From: a virus
DNA: 26,053 bases
Direction: 5' to 3' (one strand)
Virus record (IMG/VR): IMGVR_UViG_3300044642_000527
Location: 1-26,053 of that record
The stretch's first letter is position 1, and each line of letters opens with the position of its first letter. The notes below the pieces were generated by a model. It was not told the DNA's origin, did no database searches, and saw nothing but the letters and a program-made list of their open reading frames with translations. Positions 1,040 through 17,549 of this stretch are shown piece by piece. A program made the translations under genes and the position numbers.

Positions 1040-1040
<1 letters not shown>
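306..1040 (-). CDS. Putative phage adhesin resembling a fibrinogen-related domain (FReD)
   Basis: This 244-residue protein starts with an ATG that overlaps the giant fibre gene's stop codon (TAATG), so the two are probably translationally coupled. The N-terminal part has GFYSIKLGG (about 20-28) and YVTVYVDQEYDGGGWICVLA (30-49), resembling the fibrinogen-domain opening 'G-x-Y-x-I ... V-Y-C-D-M ... D-G-G-G-W'. The C-terminal part has TYDNDQDAYGSGNC (184-197), then FWYGGC (206-211) and SGNWFAGGGY (213-222). This follows the FReD pattern of an Asp/Asn-rich calcium-site loop, a Cys, a W-W/Y pair, a second Cys and an 'N-L-N-G' strand. Cys197 and Cys211 could form the conserved disulfide. FReDs of ficolins and intelectins bind glycans, so a receptor-binding role at the fibre tip is plausible. 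The assignment rests on motif spacing read by eye; a generic Tyr/Trp/Gly-rich fibre tip is the alternative. Confidence 0.7.
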
Positions 1041-6025
<4,985 letters not shown>

Positions 6026-13532: not shown

Positions 13533-15158
13533 TTATACAGTAGCGATATCGCTAACGAAGATTTTACCGTAGAATTCTGGTCTGATCATTTTCTTAGCGT
13601 AACGAGTCATGATACCTTTTACTGGTGTAAAGGTTTCTGGATTGTACACTAATGGAGTCATGATTAATGGAATATATGGAGCATAAACTGCACCAGTTTC
13701 CAAGAATTGAGATCCTCTGTAACCTAATAAGATTACGTTTTCAGTCATGTAAGGGTTTTTGTAAACTCTGAAACGAGAATTCAAGTTACCTACTTTCTGA
13801 ACTCCCATTGCAAAGTCCATTTTGTCACCGTTTGTATCTGCTGCATATCCTGGAATTGATTCTAAGATTGTAGCTACAGTTGGAGAACATACTAAGAAGT
13901 TAGCTCCACCTCTTAAAGTTTTTTGGTGAATTTTGTTAGATACTTTTTGTACTTTAGTACCTAAAGTTCCGAACCATTGACCTTGAGTGTTGTAGAAACT
14001 AGTTCCTGCATTGAATGTACCTGTTTCCCAAGCATTAGTTGATGGGTTCCAGTTTTTGTTGTTAACTGCTGACCATCTTTCAGTTGTAGCTGCATCTTGG
14101 ATTAACATATCCATTAACTCTAAGTCAATCTCCATAGAGATGTACTCTGATAATAATGAAGTTAATTCTGCTTCAGCATCAATTGAATGGTAAGAGTTAA
14201 GATCTTGTGCGAACTCTGGAGTCCATTGTGCTTTTAATTTTCTTGTTTTAGCAACGATAGCTTCAGAAGCTAATGATACGTTGATTTCAGGAATTTTAAT
14301 AGTTCCGTTGTTGTTTCCTGCTGGGTTAGTTCCTCCGTCTTCGAAGTCACCTCTTGATCTGTCAGTTGGTTGCATTTGGTATTTTACAGTAGCTGTGAAA
14401 GATCCTGTAGTGATTCCTGATGCTAATCCTACGAATTTCACATATTCTCCTGCTGCAGAAGAAGATAAGAAAGTAAGTTCTGGGTTAGAAGTTACATCTA
14501 CTGAAGCAGAGTAAAGTCTGAATGCTCTAACACCTTTAGGATCGAATCCTGCGATACTTCCTGTTCCGAATGCTAATGTAAAATAGTTTGAAGGATTTAT
14601 TCCATCTTGGTATGCGATAGAAGAAGATACTGCTGATCCAGTAGTACTGTAAACTCCTGCAGAAGATGCAGAGTTGATTGAGTAACCAAATTGACCTGCT
14701 CCGTATAAACCTCCTGATGGATCAACATCTACTCCAATTTTAGAGTTAGCTGTAGAAACGTTACCGTAAAGGTTATCCCCGTCTGTTCTACCTACTGCGT
14801 TTGTACCGTATTTAAAGTCTAAGTAAAATACAAGTCCTGAAGGTAAGTTCATTGGTTGTACAGAAACGAAATCTTTAGCTGCGATTTGAGCGAATACTTT
14901 ACGTACTAATGGTAAAGCTACTCCAGCCCATTGCTCAGCACCACCTGTAGAAGTACCCATTGCACCTGTACCTGTAGTATTTTCTGATACGATTTGTTTT
15001 GCTTGATTCTCAAGAATCATAGCCATGTTGTTTCTTTCGATTTCGTTAGAAATTCCTTCTAACAAACCTGATTTGGCCCATTTACCAGACAAACGAGCTG
15101 CATCAGCTTGTAAAGTCTTATAGTTGTTCGCCCCTTCGAATAATTGATTTAATTCCAT
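13533..15158 (-). CDS. Major capsid protein, T4 gp23-like (541 aa)
   Basis: Recognised from the block LPLVRKVFAQIAAKDFVSVQ and PMNLPSGLVFYLDFKYGTNA (about 83-122), the hallmark of T4-type capsid proteins ('LV R.. P.L.A.d...VQPM..PtG'). Further support is VAKTRKLKAQWTPEFAQDLN, EAELTSLLSEYISMEIDLEL and the C-terminal RPEFYGKIFVSDIA. T4 gp23 is 521 aa, so the length fits. By alignment the mature N-terminus should lie around residues 46-60, where ILE|N (50/51) and VSE|N (59/60) are candidate gp21 cleavage sites; LLE|G (33-35) is another. The HK97-fold protein forms the hexameric shell. The start is A-rich with no Shine-Dalgarno. The gene follows the scaffold by 26 nt without a box of its own and ends at a strong terminator. 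Confidence 0.97.
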   Translation of the reverse strand: MELNQLFEGANNYKTLQADAARLSGKWAKSGLLEGISNEIERNNMAMILENQAKQIVSENTTGTGAMGTSTGGAEQWAGVALPLVRKVFAQIAAKDFVSVQPMNLPSGLVFYLDFKYGTNAVGRTDGDNLYGNVSTANSKIGVDVDPSGGLYGAGQFGYSINSASSAGVYSTTGSAVSSSIAYQDGINPSNYFTLAFGTGSIAGFDPKGVRAFRLYSASVDVTSNPELTFLSSSAAGEYVKFVGLASGITTGSFTATVKYQMQPTDRSRGDFEDGGTNPAGNNNGTIKIPEINVSLASEAIVAKTRKLKAQWTPEFAQDLNSYHSIDAEAELTSLLSEYISMEIDLELMDMLIQDAATTERWSAVNNKNWNPSTNAWETGTFNAGTSFYNTQGQWFGTLGTKVQKVSNKIHQKTLRGGANFLVCSPTVATILESIPGYAADTNGDKMDFAMGVQKVGNLNSRFRVYKNPYMTENVILLGYRGSQFLETGAVYAPYIPLIMTPLVYNPETFTPVKGIMTRYAKKMIRPEFYGKIFVSDIATV

Positions 15159-15184: not shown

Positions 15185-16573
15185 TTATTTAATAATTCCT
15201 GCTAACTTCTGCCATCTTGATACTTGCTCAGATACTTCTGATAAGATTTCTTTTGGTGCAGTTGTGTTTGCGTTACCTGTTGCTTTAGAAGCAAAAGATC
15301 TGTGCTCTTTTAATGCGGCTGGTTTAGTAACTACATTTTTAGAAACTGTTTCGAAAACTAATTTTACTTCCTTAACTGTTTCGGCTTTGTCAAATGCTGC
15401 GATAACATTTACTTTTTGACCTTCAGATAAGTTAGTTGATTTGAATACTTTATTTACATAAAGTAATTTTGCATTTAGAAGATTAACTTCTTGAAGTTGG
15501 TTTCTTAAGATTTTAACTGTCTTTAAAGCTTCGTTTAATTCTTCAGACTCTTCAGATACGTTTCTTGCTCCTGCTGCTGCACTACCAACATCGGATAATT
15601 TATCTCCGATTTGTTTTCCTTTTTCACCAAAAACTCCGTTTTTAGCCATTTCGTGTACTTTAGCCATGATAGCAGATAATCCTGTAAGACCTGCTGCTCC
15701 TAAAGCTCCAACTACTAATTGTGCAGTTTGGTTAGTTAAGAATGGGAAAGCATCAATAAGTTGATAGATAATATCGATATTTTCATCTATATTTTCTTCT
15801 TCATTTACTGCTTCAACACCTTCTCTGTTTTGGGTAACTTTGGCTGCTGCACCACCTGCTGCTTGTAATTTTTCAGCAAAAGCTTTACCTGTTGTTCCAA
15901 ATTTACCTGCTAGGGCCATATCCATTACTTTAGCAGCAATTGCAGAAAATCCTGCTAGACCTGCTGCACCAAGTGCTCCTATAACTAATGATGCGGTTTG
16001 CATAGTTAAGAATGGAAACATTTCAACAAGCTGTGCTGCTCCTTCGATATACTCCGGTCCCATTTCGTTTATGTTCTCTTCTTTAACCTCTTCCTTGTCC
16101 ATTTCGTCCAATTCTGCTAATAATTCGTTAATATCGATCTCTTCTGAATCACCATCCATACTTACCATATCTTCTTCTCCTGCTGGAGCTTCTTCGCCTG
16201 GTAATTCTTCTTCTGATTCGTCATGACCTACTTCTTGTGCAACGATATCTCTAATTAGATCTTTCAAGTCTTCAACAGACATATCTTCGATTTCTAATTC
16301 TTCTTCTTCGTTACCTTCTTCTTCTTCACCAGCTTCTTCTTCAGCTCCTTCTTCTCCTTCTCCTGCTTCTACCTCTTCTTCTTCAGCTTCATAGATGTTT
16401 TCTTCAACTACCTCATCTTCTTTATCTTCCATTTCTTGCAACTTTTGAGCAAGCATTTCTTTTAAGTGTGGAGTTAATGTTTCTTCTAAAGCTTCTTTAG
16501 CGTTGGCAATTGCAGCTTCACGAATAGTTTTCGCTTCAGCAATAGCTTGCTTTAATAAATCTTTGTTTGACAT
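15185..16573 (-). CDS. Prohead core scaffold, gp22-like, with duplicated hydrophobic domain (462 aa)
   Basis: The C-terminal third is the recognisable scaffold part: ELNEALKTVKILRNQLQEVN, LLNAKLLYVNKVFKST, LSEGQKVNVIAAFDKAETVK and EVKLVFETV (about 345-410), then a terminal VSRWQKLAGIIK. The N-terminal helix (about 1-45) is followed by an extremely Glu-rich stretch (about 43-165), typical of phage core proteins that are later digested by gp21. Between them lie two copies of a hydrophobic domain (181-244 and 271-334) with a Gly/Ala-rich helix, SLVIGALGAAGLAGFSAIAA and QLVVGALGAAGLTGLSAIMA. T4 gp22 is 269 aa with nothing comparable, so this scaffold is much longer. It probably sits inside the prohead around the portal. 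A box 97 nt upstream and the next gene make it a scaffold-capsid operon. Confidence 0.9.
   Translation of the reverse strand: MSNKDLLKQAIAEAKTIREAAIANAKEALEETLTPHLKEMLAQKLQEMEDKEDEVVEENIYEAEEEEVEAGEGEEGAEEEAGEEEEGNEEEELEIEDMSVEDLKDLIRDIVAQEVGHDESEEELPGEEAPAGEEDMVSMDGDSEEIDINELLAELDEMDKEEVKEENINEMGPEYIEGAAQLVEMFPFLTMQTASLVIGALGAAGLAGFSAIAAKVMDMALAGKFGTTGKAFAEKLQAAGGAAAKVTQNREGVEAVNEEENIDENIDIIYQLIDAFPFLTNQTAQLVVGALGAAGLTGLSAIMAKVHEMAKNGVFGEKGKQIGDKLSDVGSAAAGARNVSEESEELNEALKTVKILRNQLQEVNLLNAKLLYVNKVFKSTNLSEGQKVNVIAAFDKAETVKEVKLVFETVSKNVVTKPAALKEHRSFASKATGNANTTAPKEILSEVSEQVSRWQKLAGIIK
15572..15763 (-). repeat. Scaffold hydrophobic repeat, copy 2
   Basis: Residues 271-334 of the gp22-like protein, begins QLIDAFPFLTNQTAQLVVGA. 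Aligned without gaps to copy 1 at a constant offset of 90 residues (270 nt), I count 40 of 64 identical residues. Identity is highest over FPFLT and GALGAAGL-GxSAI-AKV and falls off at the C-terminal end. Confidence 0.9.
15842..16033 (-). repeat. Scaffold hydrophobic repeat, copy 1
   Basis: Residues 181-244 of the gp22-like protein, begins QLVEMFPFLTMQTASLVIGA. It contains a roughly 20-residue Gly/Ala-rich uncharged helix with membrane-segment character, then a charged amphipathic tail. It is separated from copy 2 by a 26-residue acidic linker. Confidence 0.9.
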
Positions 16574-16731: not shown

Positions 16732-16971
16732 TTATTTTAAAAGACTTACTATGTAGTCTAATATGTCTTGCTTTGCTTGAGGAATATCTTCTGGCTCTGT
16801 CATAGGTCCGTTTTTCCATTCTTCCCAAGCTAATTGTATTGCTTCTATTGCTTCATCAAAACGAGGTCCCATCACTTCTACGTATCCTCCTCCTTCTTGC
16901 ACTGTATTTTCTTTTAGTAATTTTGTCAAGTGTTTAGCTTGCCAATTGTGTATGTCGAAATTATTTTCCAT
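16732..16971 (-). CDS. Small virion-module protein (79 aa), possible capsid-targeted peptide
   Basis: The N-terminus is MENNFDIHNWQAKHLTKLLK followed by EN. 'F-x-I-H-x-W-Q-A-K' is, from memory, a recurring N-terminal peptide on assorted proteins of related phages. The C-terminal half, AIQLAWEEWKNGPMTEPEDI and QAKQDILDYIVSLL, resembles another recurring module ('W-x-x-W-K-x-G-P-x-T-E-P-x-D-I'). The protein is thus two mobile peptide modules joined. LLKE|N at residues 18-22 fits a gp21-type cut site. It is coupled to the protease gene by a TAATG overlap and followed by a terminator. Core or internal head protein is the best guess. Confidence 0.82.
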   Translation of the reverse strand: MENNFDIHNWQAKHLTKLLKENTVQEGGGYVEVMGPRFDEAIEAIQLAWEEWKNGPMTEPEDIPQAKQDILDYIVSLLK

Positions 16972-17549
16972 TATGCTCTTAATATATTGTTAATAATAGA
17001 ATCTAATCTATCGTATTTTCCTACTGATTGTTTTCCTTCGTTTAGTGAAATTGGATTCATAAAAGCTCCTTGTGTTGATGGATTAGAAACGAAATCCCAA
17101 CATACTAATTCAAAATCATCCTGTACCATTAAAGTTCCTTCATTGGTTTGTGATACTGATCCTGTTCCTCTTGAAGAGATTCCAATTGTATGTCCTCCTC
17201 TTAATATTTCTTTTACGATATTTCCTGAGGGTGTATTTAGTAATTCAACTTTACCCATCAAGTCATCTCCATCCCACCATAAGTCTTTTACAACGTGTGA
17301 TGCGTTTTTTAAAGAGACAATTGCTGATTCTGGATGATCTAATTCTCCGTATGCATTTCCTATCTTAACAAAATTCTCTACATAATTTTTTACTTCTTCT
17401 TCAAGAATTTCTCTTTTGTAGATTCTTCCGTTTTGATTCTTAGCTCCTGCTCTCTGCATAATGCCTGTTACTTCGAATACTCCGGGTTTAGCCTTTGATT
17501 CGGTAAGCATTCCTTTGAAAGGAGTTACATTTACTAATAAATTGTTCAT
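16971..17549 (-). CDS. Prohead core protease, T4 gp21-like (192 aa)
   Basis: A serine protease of the T4 gp21 type. The opening KPGVFEVTGIMQRAGAKNQN and GRIYKREIL (about 21-49) is the typical substrate-side strand. GELDHPES (68-75) supplies the catalytic His72. HTIGISSRGTG (120-130) supplies the catalytic Ser (125 or 126). WDFVSNPSTQGAF (151-163) is the conserved closing block. Length is close to T4 gp21 (212 aa). It is active inside the prohead, where it digests the scaffold, trims the capsid protein and then itself. SLNE|G at 168-172 could be a self-cut site. It lies just before the small 79-aa gene and the scaffold operon, preserving the T4 order 20-21-22-23. Confidence 0.96.
   Translation of the reverse strand: MNNLLVNVTPFKGMLTESKAKPGVFEVTGIMQRAGAKNQNGRIYKREILEEEVKNYVENFVKIGNAYGELDHPESAIVSLKNASHVVKDLWWDGDDLMGKVELLNTPSGNIVKEILRGGHTIGISSRGTGSVSQTNEGTLMVQDDFELVCWDFVSNPSTQGAFMNPISLNEGKQSVGKYDRLDSIINNILRA

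Follow-up and report, generated by a model that had tools for sequence, protein, structure and literature searches.

What is a duplicated hydrophobic domain doing inside a phage prohead scaffold? The question arises in the window analysed here, a 26,053-nt stretch of DNA from a T4-like aquatic phage (IMG/VR record IMGVR_UViG_3300044642_000527) whose minus strand carries a T4-type head cluster of terminase, portal, S77 protease, a 79-aa gene, scaffold and gp23-like capsid protein. A preliminary description had offered three options: that the domain anchors or nucleates the scaffold core at the membrane, that it packs core subunits together, or that it survives proteolysis and leaves the head with the DNA.

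The scaffold gene and its neighbours

16971..17549 (-): gp21-like prohead protease (peptidase S77; Pfam PF03420, E 2.5e-35; PHROG 207)
16732..16971 (-): 79-aa gene with a conserved leader, between protease and scaffold (comparison with relatives)
15185..16573 (-): gp22-like prohead scaffold, 462 aa (open reading frame between the S77 protease and the gp23-like major capsid protein, as in T4; relatives by tblastn)
16430..16573 (-): conserved N-terminal part of the scaffold, residues 1–48 (identity and dN/dS in seven phages)
16079..16429 (-): acidic region of the scaffold, residues 49–165 (translation)
15188..15529 (-): conserved basic C-terminal domain of the scaffold, residues 349–462 (identity and dN/dS)
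13533..15158 (-): gp23-like major capsid protein (Pfam PF07068, E 8.3e-80)

The scaffold occupies the position of gp22, between the counterparts of the gp21 protease and the gp23 capsid protein, with one small gene separating it from the protease. It shares with T4 gp22 (with gp67 and gp68; cut by gp21) the order protease–scaffold–capsid protein, an acidic, charged and helical character and many L/I-x-E-type protease motifs; the pI of the whole protein is 4.31 and the net charge across residues 1–165 is −54. The C-terminal domain has a pI of 9.95 and ends in RWQKLAGIIK. We use 'gp22-like' as a label by position and composition only, as homology with T4 gp22 is not significant: a single-sequence search with the family model gave E 0.069, and against a model of the scaffold C-terminal domain T4 gp22 scored lower than shuffled T4 gp22. 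Pfam and PHROG matches of the scaffold itself (Vps54, DNApol3-delta_C and phrog_24278) were set aside as chance matches. By analogy with T4, the protein presumably makes up the prohead core and serves as a substrate of the gp21-like protease. Elsewhere on the same strand, 1040-6025 (-) encodes a 1661-aa protein resembling a tail fibre; its PHROG matches are many and overlapping, to tail fibre and collagen-like entries.

A duplicated hydrophobic module

15800..16063 (-): module copy 1, residues 171–258, predicted released peptide of 8.8 kDa (repeat, alignment, mass)
15551..15781 (-): module copy 2, residues 265–341, predicted released peptide of 7.9 kDa (repeat, alignment, mass)
15932..15991 (-): hydrophobic Gly/Ala-rich helix of copy 1, residues 195–214 (Kyte–Doolittle; modelled as a helix by AF2)
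15662..15721 (-): hydrophobic Gly/Ala-rich helix of copy 2, residues 285–304 (Kyte–Doolittle)

The duplication proved exactly as first described: two 64-residue copies, identical at 40/64 positions and offset by 90 residues, lie within 15572..16033 (-), scaffold residues 181–334. They begin at residues 181 and 271 (15842-16033 and 15572-15763, minus strand). Across 2000 shuffled versions of the region, no more than 19/64 positions matched, and BLASTP of two module-length pieces aligned 44/78 identical residues (E 3e-26). Each copy also contains the uncharged Gly/Ala-rich stretch that had been reported (residues 195–214 and 285–304), and T4 gp22 indeed lacks such an insert: at 269 aa, it has neither a duplicated module nor a comparable hydrophobic stretch, its highest 19-residue Kyte–Doolittle mean being 0.68. 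In the window the best 19-residue means are 1.98 (copy 1) and 1.89 (copy 2), the top values of the whole scaffold, against a usual membrane cut-off of about 1.6, and the stretch is Gly-rich; on the octanol scale, the FPFL segment was favoured over the Gly/Ala stretch. We therefore regard the module helix as borderline transmembrane-like, and membrane activity of the helix itself as possible. The stretch does not match a strict GxxxG glycine zipper, since the invariant glycines (module positions 29, 32 and 35, with position 38 nearly invariant) recur every three residues, not four. Across module copies the Gly, Phe-Pro-Phe-Leu and Lys positions are invariant.

The AlphaFold (AF2) model of one module has four helices and is of moderate confidence (pLDDT 68, pTM 0.44); the two-copy region gave no usable model (pLDDT 40). 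Searches of the PDB by sequence and by fold, of BFVD predicted viral folds and of Pfam gave nothing significant for the modules. The two-module region alone had no tblastn match in the annotated phage collection, and a module-wide alignment was too variable to yield a pattern for scanning. In ten large contigs, the window's type of module (A) was found in scaffolds only.

A variable slot in related scaffolds

A tblastn scan of viral contigs recovered 583 related scaffolds. Together with further scans this gave 98 non-redundant scaffolds, 97 of them with a recognisable slot, a biased sample in that relatives were picked by similarity to the window. The slot follows the motif EEIDINELLAELE and runs up to the C-terminal domain, and the scaffold ends are conserved on both sides of it in all 97. 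It holds no module in 33 scaffolds, one in 16, two in 45 and three in 3, so that at least one module is present in 64/97. The duplication is not the main point; a variable slot with 0–3 swappable modules is.

Modules are about 45–90 residues long and fall by single-linkage clustering into at least seven classes with no detectable mutual similarity, a lower bound because class 1 merges several visibly different modules. Besides the window's own hydrophobic class (A), they include a broad one marked by AKKAGKxVxDF-like motifs among others, the GFEQWLDSVSAQ class and rarer ones. Smith–Waterman self-comparison revealed internal duplications in 25 scaffolds, several of them with a repeat unit that takes in the motif-bearing linker. 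Wherever a scaffold mixes classes, the hydrophobic one comes first (22/22). The hydrophobic modules of two scaffolds (classes 12 and 15) fall outside the window's cluster; as their layout is similar, a remote relationship to the window's class is possible.

The nearest annotated relative, Flavobacterium phage immuto (MW353176), is 89% identical to the window over the aligned parts, about half of the scaffold. Its scaffold shares the conserved ends, the gene order and duplicated, motif-bordered modules, whereas the modules themselves (GFEQWLDSVSAQ.. twice) are hydrophilic and do not cluster with those of the window: the window's duplicated domain is absent and a different duplicated module occupies its place. 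The GenBank label of this scaffold (MW353176.1 125582-126823), 'DNA polymerase phi-like protein', is probably a mis-annotation prompted by acidic composition. The preliminary description had allowed that all related scaffolds might share the domain, or that its helices might be buried in a soluble fold. The first is not so, as relatives differ; on the second, the predictions speak with low confidence (pLDDT 68 for one module, 40 for two).

These comparisons bear on the proposed assembly role at the inner membrane, in which the hydrophobic helices would anchor the scaffold core there or nucleate it. T4-type proheads do start at the inner membrane (PMC5694885), the helices show borderline transmembrane hydrophobicity, and hydrophobic modules occur outside the A class as well, in classes 12 and 15. 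The copies, however, are Gly-rich and barely at transmembrane thresholds, a hydrophobic module is present in just 40/97 scaffolds, and close relatives with the same scaffold ends, including immuto, carry hydrophilic modules or none. Since close relatives manage without the module, it is unlikely to be an obligatory membrane anchor. Membrane anchoring or nucleation thus finds no support as an assembly function, and we consider it improbable.

Exchange of modules between phages

Among 292 scaffold pairs with C-terminal domains at least 88% identical, the slot architecture differs in 181, a count that follows the clustering lists and so includes some linker classes. In the pair L150 and L151, the DNA is 96–99% identical on both sides of the junction and the first module is common to both; the sequences part within GELEEGM(E), continue as different modules and come together again ahead of ESxELxEAL, so that the module difference starts and stops within linkers. 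DNA similarity is likewise lost in linkers between the window and L042 and L021, and between L011 and L024. Together, these comparisons demonstrate, at the level of sequence, that whole modules are the units of duplication, gain, loss and exchange between phages.

Rates of change along the scaffold could be compared in seven phages that share one module order. The N-terminal part (mean 96% amino acid identity, dN/dS 0.05) and the C-terminal domain (91%, dN/dS 0.17) are more constrained than copy 1 (dN/dS 0.46) and copy 2 (dN/dS 0.29), indicating that modules are maintained by purifying selection and evolve faster than the scaffold ends. Copy 1 resembles copy 1 of other phages (83–92%) more than copy 2 of its own protein, and the duplication is therefore older than the split of these phages. 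The window's two copies are 58% alike, compared with 42–50% in the other six phages, perhaps through gene conversion.

The slot could also be a tolerant loop, a fast-evolving, recombination-prone filler between two essential domains whose modules have no selected function. Its high variability and the 33 of 97 scaffolds without a module would fit such a loop. A module dN/dS well under 1, the invariant Gly, Phe-Pro-Phe-Leu and Lys positions and the occurrence of related modules in separate proteins (below) argue against it, and we rate this explanation as very unlikely.

Candidate protease motifs at module borders

16064..16072 (-): candidate cleavage motif INE (168–170), before copy 1 (motif position)
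15800..15808 (-): candidate cleavage motif VNE (256–258), end of copy 1 (motif position)
15782..15790 (-): candidate cleavage motif IDE (262–264), before copy 2 (motif position)
15551..15559 (-): candidate cleavage motif VSE (339–341), after copy 2 (V/I-S-E form, as at the capsid propeptide end)
15530..15538 (-): candidate cleavage motif LNE (346–348), before the C-terminal domain (motif position)
14982..14990 (-): capsid propeptide end VSE (57–59), probable protease site (conserved in relatives)

The T4 protease gp21, which cleaves after L/I-X-E, breaks gp22 into several pieces, and a gp22* product stays in the head (PMC9026906). In the related scaffolds, 87 of 91 distinct module starts, picked by eye, follow immediately after [ILMV]-x-E, compared with 5.7% expected from shuffles of the 25 residues upstream of the module start. 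All 8 modules of the A1 type are preceded by the motif. Its middle position (P2) at module starts is mostly N, D or E, and the motif is nearly missing 15–40 residues inside modules. A blind test took scaffolds that differ in module order, aligned them locally and asked where the alignments stop; the right ends of shared blocks lay at most 4 residues from a motif in 80% of cases, compared with 34% expected. Left ends showed no clear enrichment (36% versus 32% expected), probably because the alignments run on through acidic linkers.

The capsid proteins offer a comparison. Nearly all of those from 87 unique relatives contain NQAKQ[IVL][VI]xE followed by variable sequence, a probable capsid maturation site, at a position that we take to correspond to the T4 capsid maturation site. 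The module-start motif [ILMV]xE is close both to the L/I-x-E of T4 gp21 and to this propeptide end. It is also short and common in acidic linkers, and it occurs inside both copies in the window (LVE 182–184 in copy 1, VHE 306–308 in copy 2), so a protease of such loose preference might cut the modules as well. The case for these putative cleavage sites is strong, short of proof.

Related modules and leaders outside the scaffold

Modules also occur in proteins beside the scaffold. In L125, a 189-aa protein encoded directly after the protease consists of the leader MSDFDLRKFLAEQK and two modules, each after a motif: one of the second class (G-type; E 2.6e-11) and one A-like hydrophobic (E 0.0026). 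A single-protein search with it returned only itself. In L197, a leader protein of the same kind carries the A-like module only (E 4.5e-4) and stands beside a module-less scaffold. Module gain or loss thus happens in both carriers, scaffold and leader protein.

The 79-aa gene of the window (16732..16971) follows a similar pattern. Its leader, M..(N)FDIHxWQAKxLxKE, is conserved across phages, and the remainder is unrelated between many of them; the product is probably a leader-tagged head protein, with a capsid-targeting leader and changing cargo. The segment GGYVE..AWEEWKxGP of the 79-aa protein is also found inside larger proteins of the portal–protease interval (L069 2295 ORF, L178 698 ORF), and judged by these occurrences it is another module moving between carriers. 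Hydrophobic proteins of 168–178 aa lie beside the scaffold in further phages (L074 171, L069 5348, L201, L082, L083 and L191; reading frames upstream of the scaffold). They have a short MKLSELILE-like leader and an xNE or xDE motif, and mostly occur where the scaffold has no modules.

A proposed role for the modules

By analogy with T4, we propose that the scaffold is a core-forming polyprotein with a variable slot for independent helical modules, from which maturation frees accessory head peptides that are kept in the head or leave with the DNA; we give this reading about an even chance. The conserved N-terminal part and C-terminal domain would presumably build the core, and core assembly would put many scaffold copies, and hence modules, inside the prohead. 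Once the prohead is filled with scaffold, the gp21-like S77 protease would cut the [ILMV]-x-E motifs and the core would be dismantled, freeing the modules within the head as small peptides (8–9 kDa). The T4 prohead contains 576 gp22 (PMC5694885), and hundreds of module copies could stay with the DNA and then be ejected with it, like the T4 internal proteins. The window's cargo would be two related peptides of ~8.8 and 7.9 kDa. In each, an amphipathic helix would come after the hydrophobic Gly/Ala helix, and the peptides might self-associate or act on the inner membrane of the host. Given that modules are exchanged whole, that protease-like motifs stand at their starts and that related modules occur in leader proteins, departure with the DNA is the best supported of the three options in the preliminary description, although we infer both the cleavage and the fate of the modules, and their membrane action, by analogy. 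Most core fragments exit the T4 head (PMC9026906), so freed module peptides may simply be lost.

The main rival to this cargo reading is that the modules are structural parts of the core, which self-associate through the Gly/Ala face, tune core mass, stiffness or head size, and are degraded and expelled at maturation; they would be exchangeable since generic self-association suffices. The modules do sit in the scaffold itself, which in T4 is removed after proteolysis (PMC9026906), and T4 gene 22 is among the genes affecting head length (PMC2993671). Tandem duplication and the fixed order of mixed scaffolds, with the hydrophobic class first, could also reflect packing constraints. Such a role is harder to reconcile with the third of scaffolds that have no module (33/97), with the alternation of chemically different modules between close relatives, and with related modules in leader proteins outside the scaffold. 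We consider it somewhat unlikely.

Known systems resemble the proposed polyprotein in part. T4 IPI–III and Alt are highly diverse between related phages, are freed in the head by L/I-x-E cleavage and are ejected with the DNA, and IPI blocks a restriction enzyme (PMC9026906, PMC3012670). The window's modules show the same strong diversity between close relatives on a conserved carrier. Unlike them, the T4 proteins are separate genes with an N-terminal capsid targeting sequence; the modules lie mid-scaffold and lack one, and only the stand-alone forms in L125 and L197 have an N-terminal leader. P1 DarA and Hdf are anti-restriction head proteins that have also been proposed as auxiliary scaffold, and DarA loses its N-terminus to the prohead protease (PMC12810830); they differ in having no scaffold with exchangeable internal modules. 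In engineered P22 fusions, cargo is reported to enter the shell fused to the scaffold protein (PMC9962691), an artificial arrangement. Descriptions of a scaffold slot of the present kind were not found in the open-licence literature searched. The component parts, a T4-type prohead core and its protease, are known; the arrangement is new to us.

A further step, plausible though on the doubtful side, is that the scaffold serves as a natural cargo polyprotein through which hundreds of exchangeable effector peptides, membrane-active or amphipathic, are delivered into the host along with the genome; the slot would then be a hot spot for phage–host conflict. Scaffold proteins are generally regarded as transient assembly aids. 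If the cargo reading is right, a slot with interchangeable, mostly motif-preceded modules would connect the delivery of cargo directly with the building of the head. It would also account for the loading of peptides by phages that need no additional genes for it, and would indicate that aquatic phages have a compact set of peptides acting on the host. Such a slot also offers a natural template for packing cargo into phage heads. The cargo reading can be tested in a cultured phage, immuto on Flavobacterium.

Finally, five further immuto proteins share two N-terminal leaders (L205 3762-4307, 18588-18884 and 11631-12092; L203 1803-2315 and 25470-25862): MEN(T)FDLKKFLVEN.LT in three proteins and MKKQILSEQF.RMQ.LAGIITES in two. 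The latter has QKLAGI in common with the scaffold C-terminus, which suggests a common core-targeting signal. Immuto also carries an annotated 7-deazaguanine DNA modification set (L203 18607-36971; QueC, QueD, QueE, QueF, FolE and DpdA), and restriction evasion may therefore matter to this phage group.
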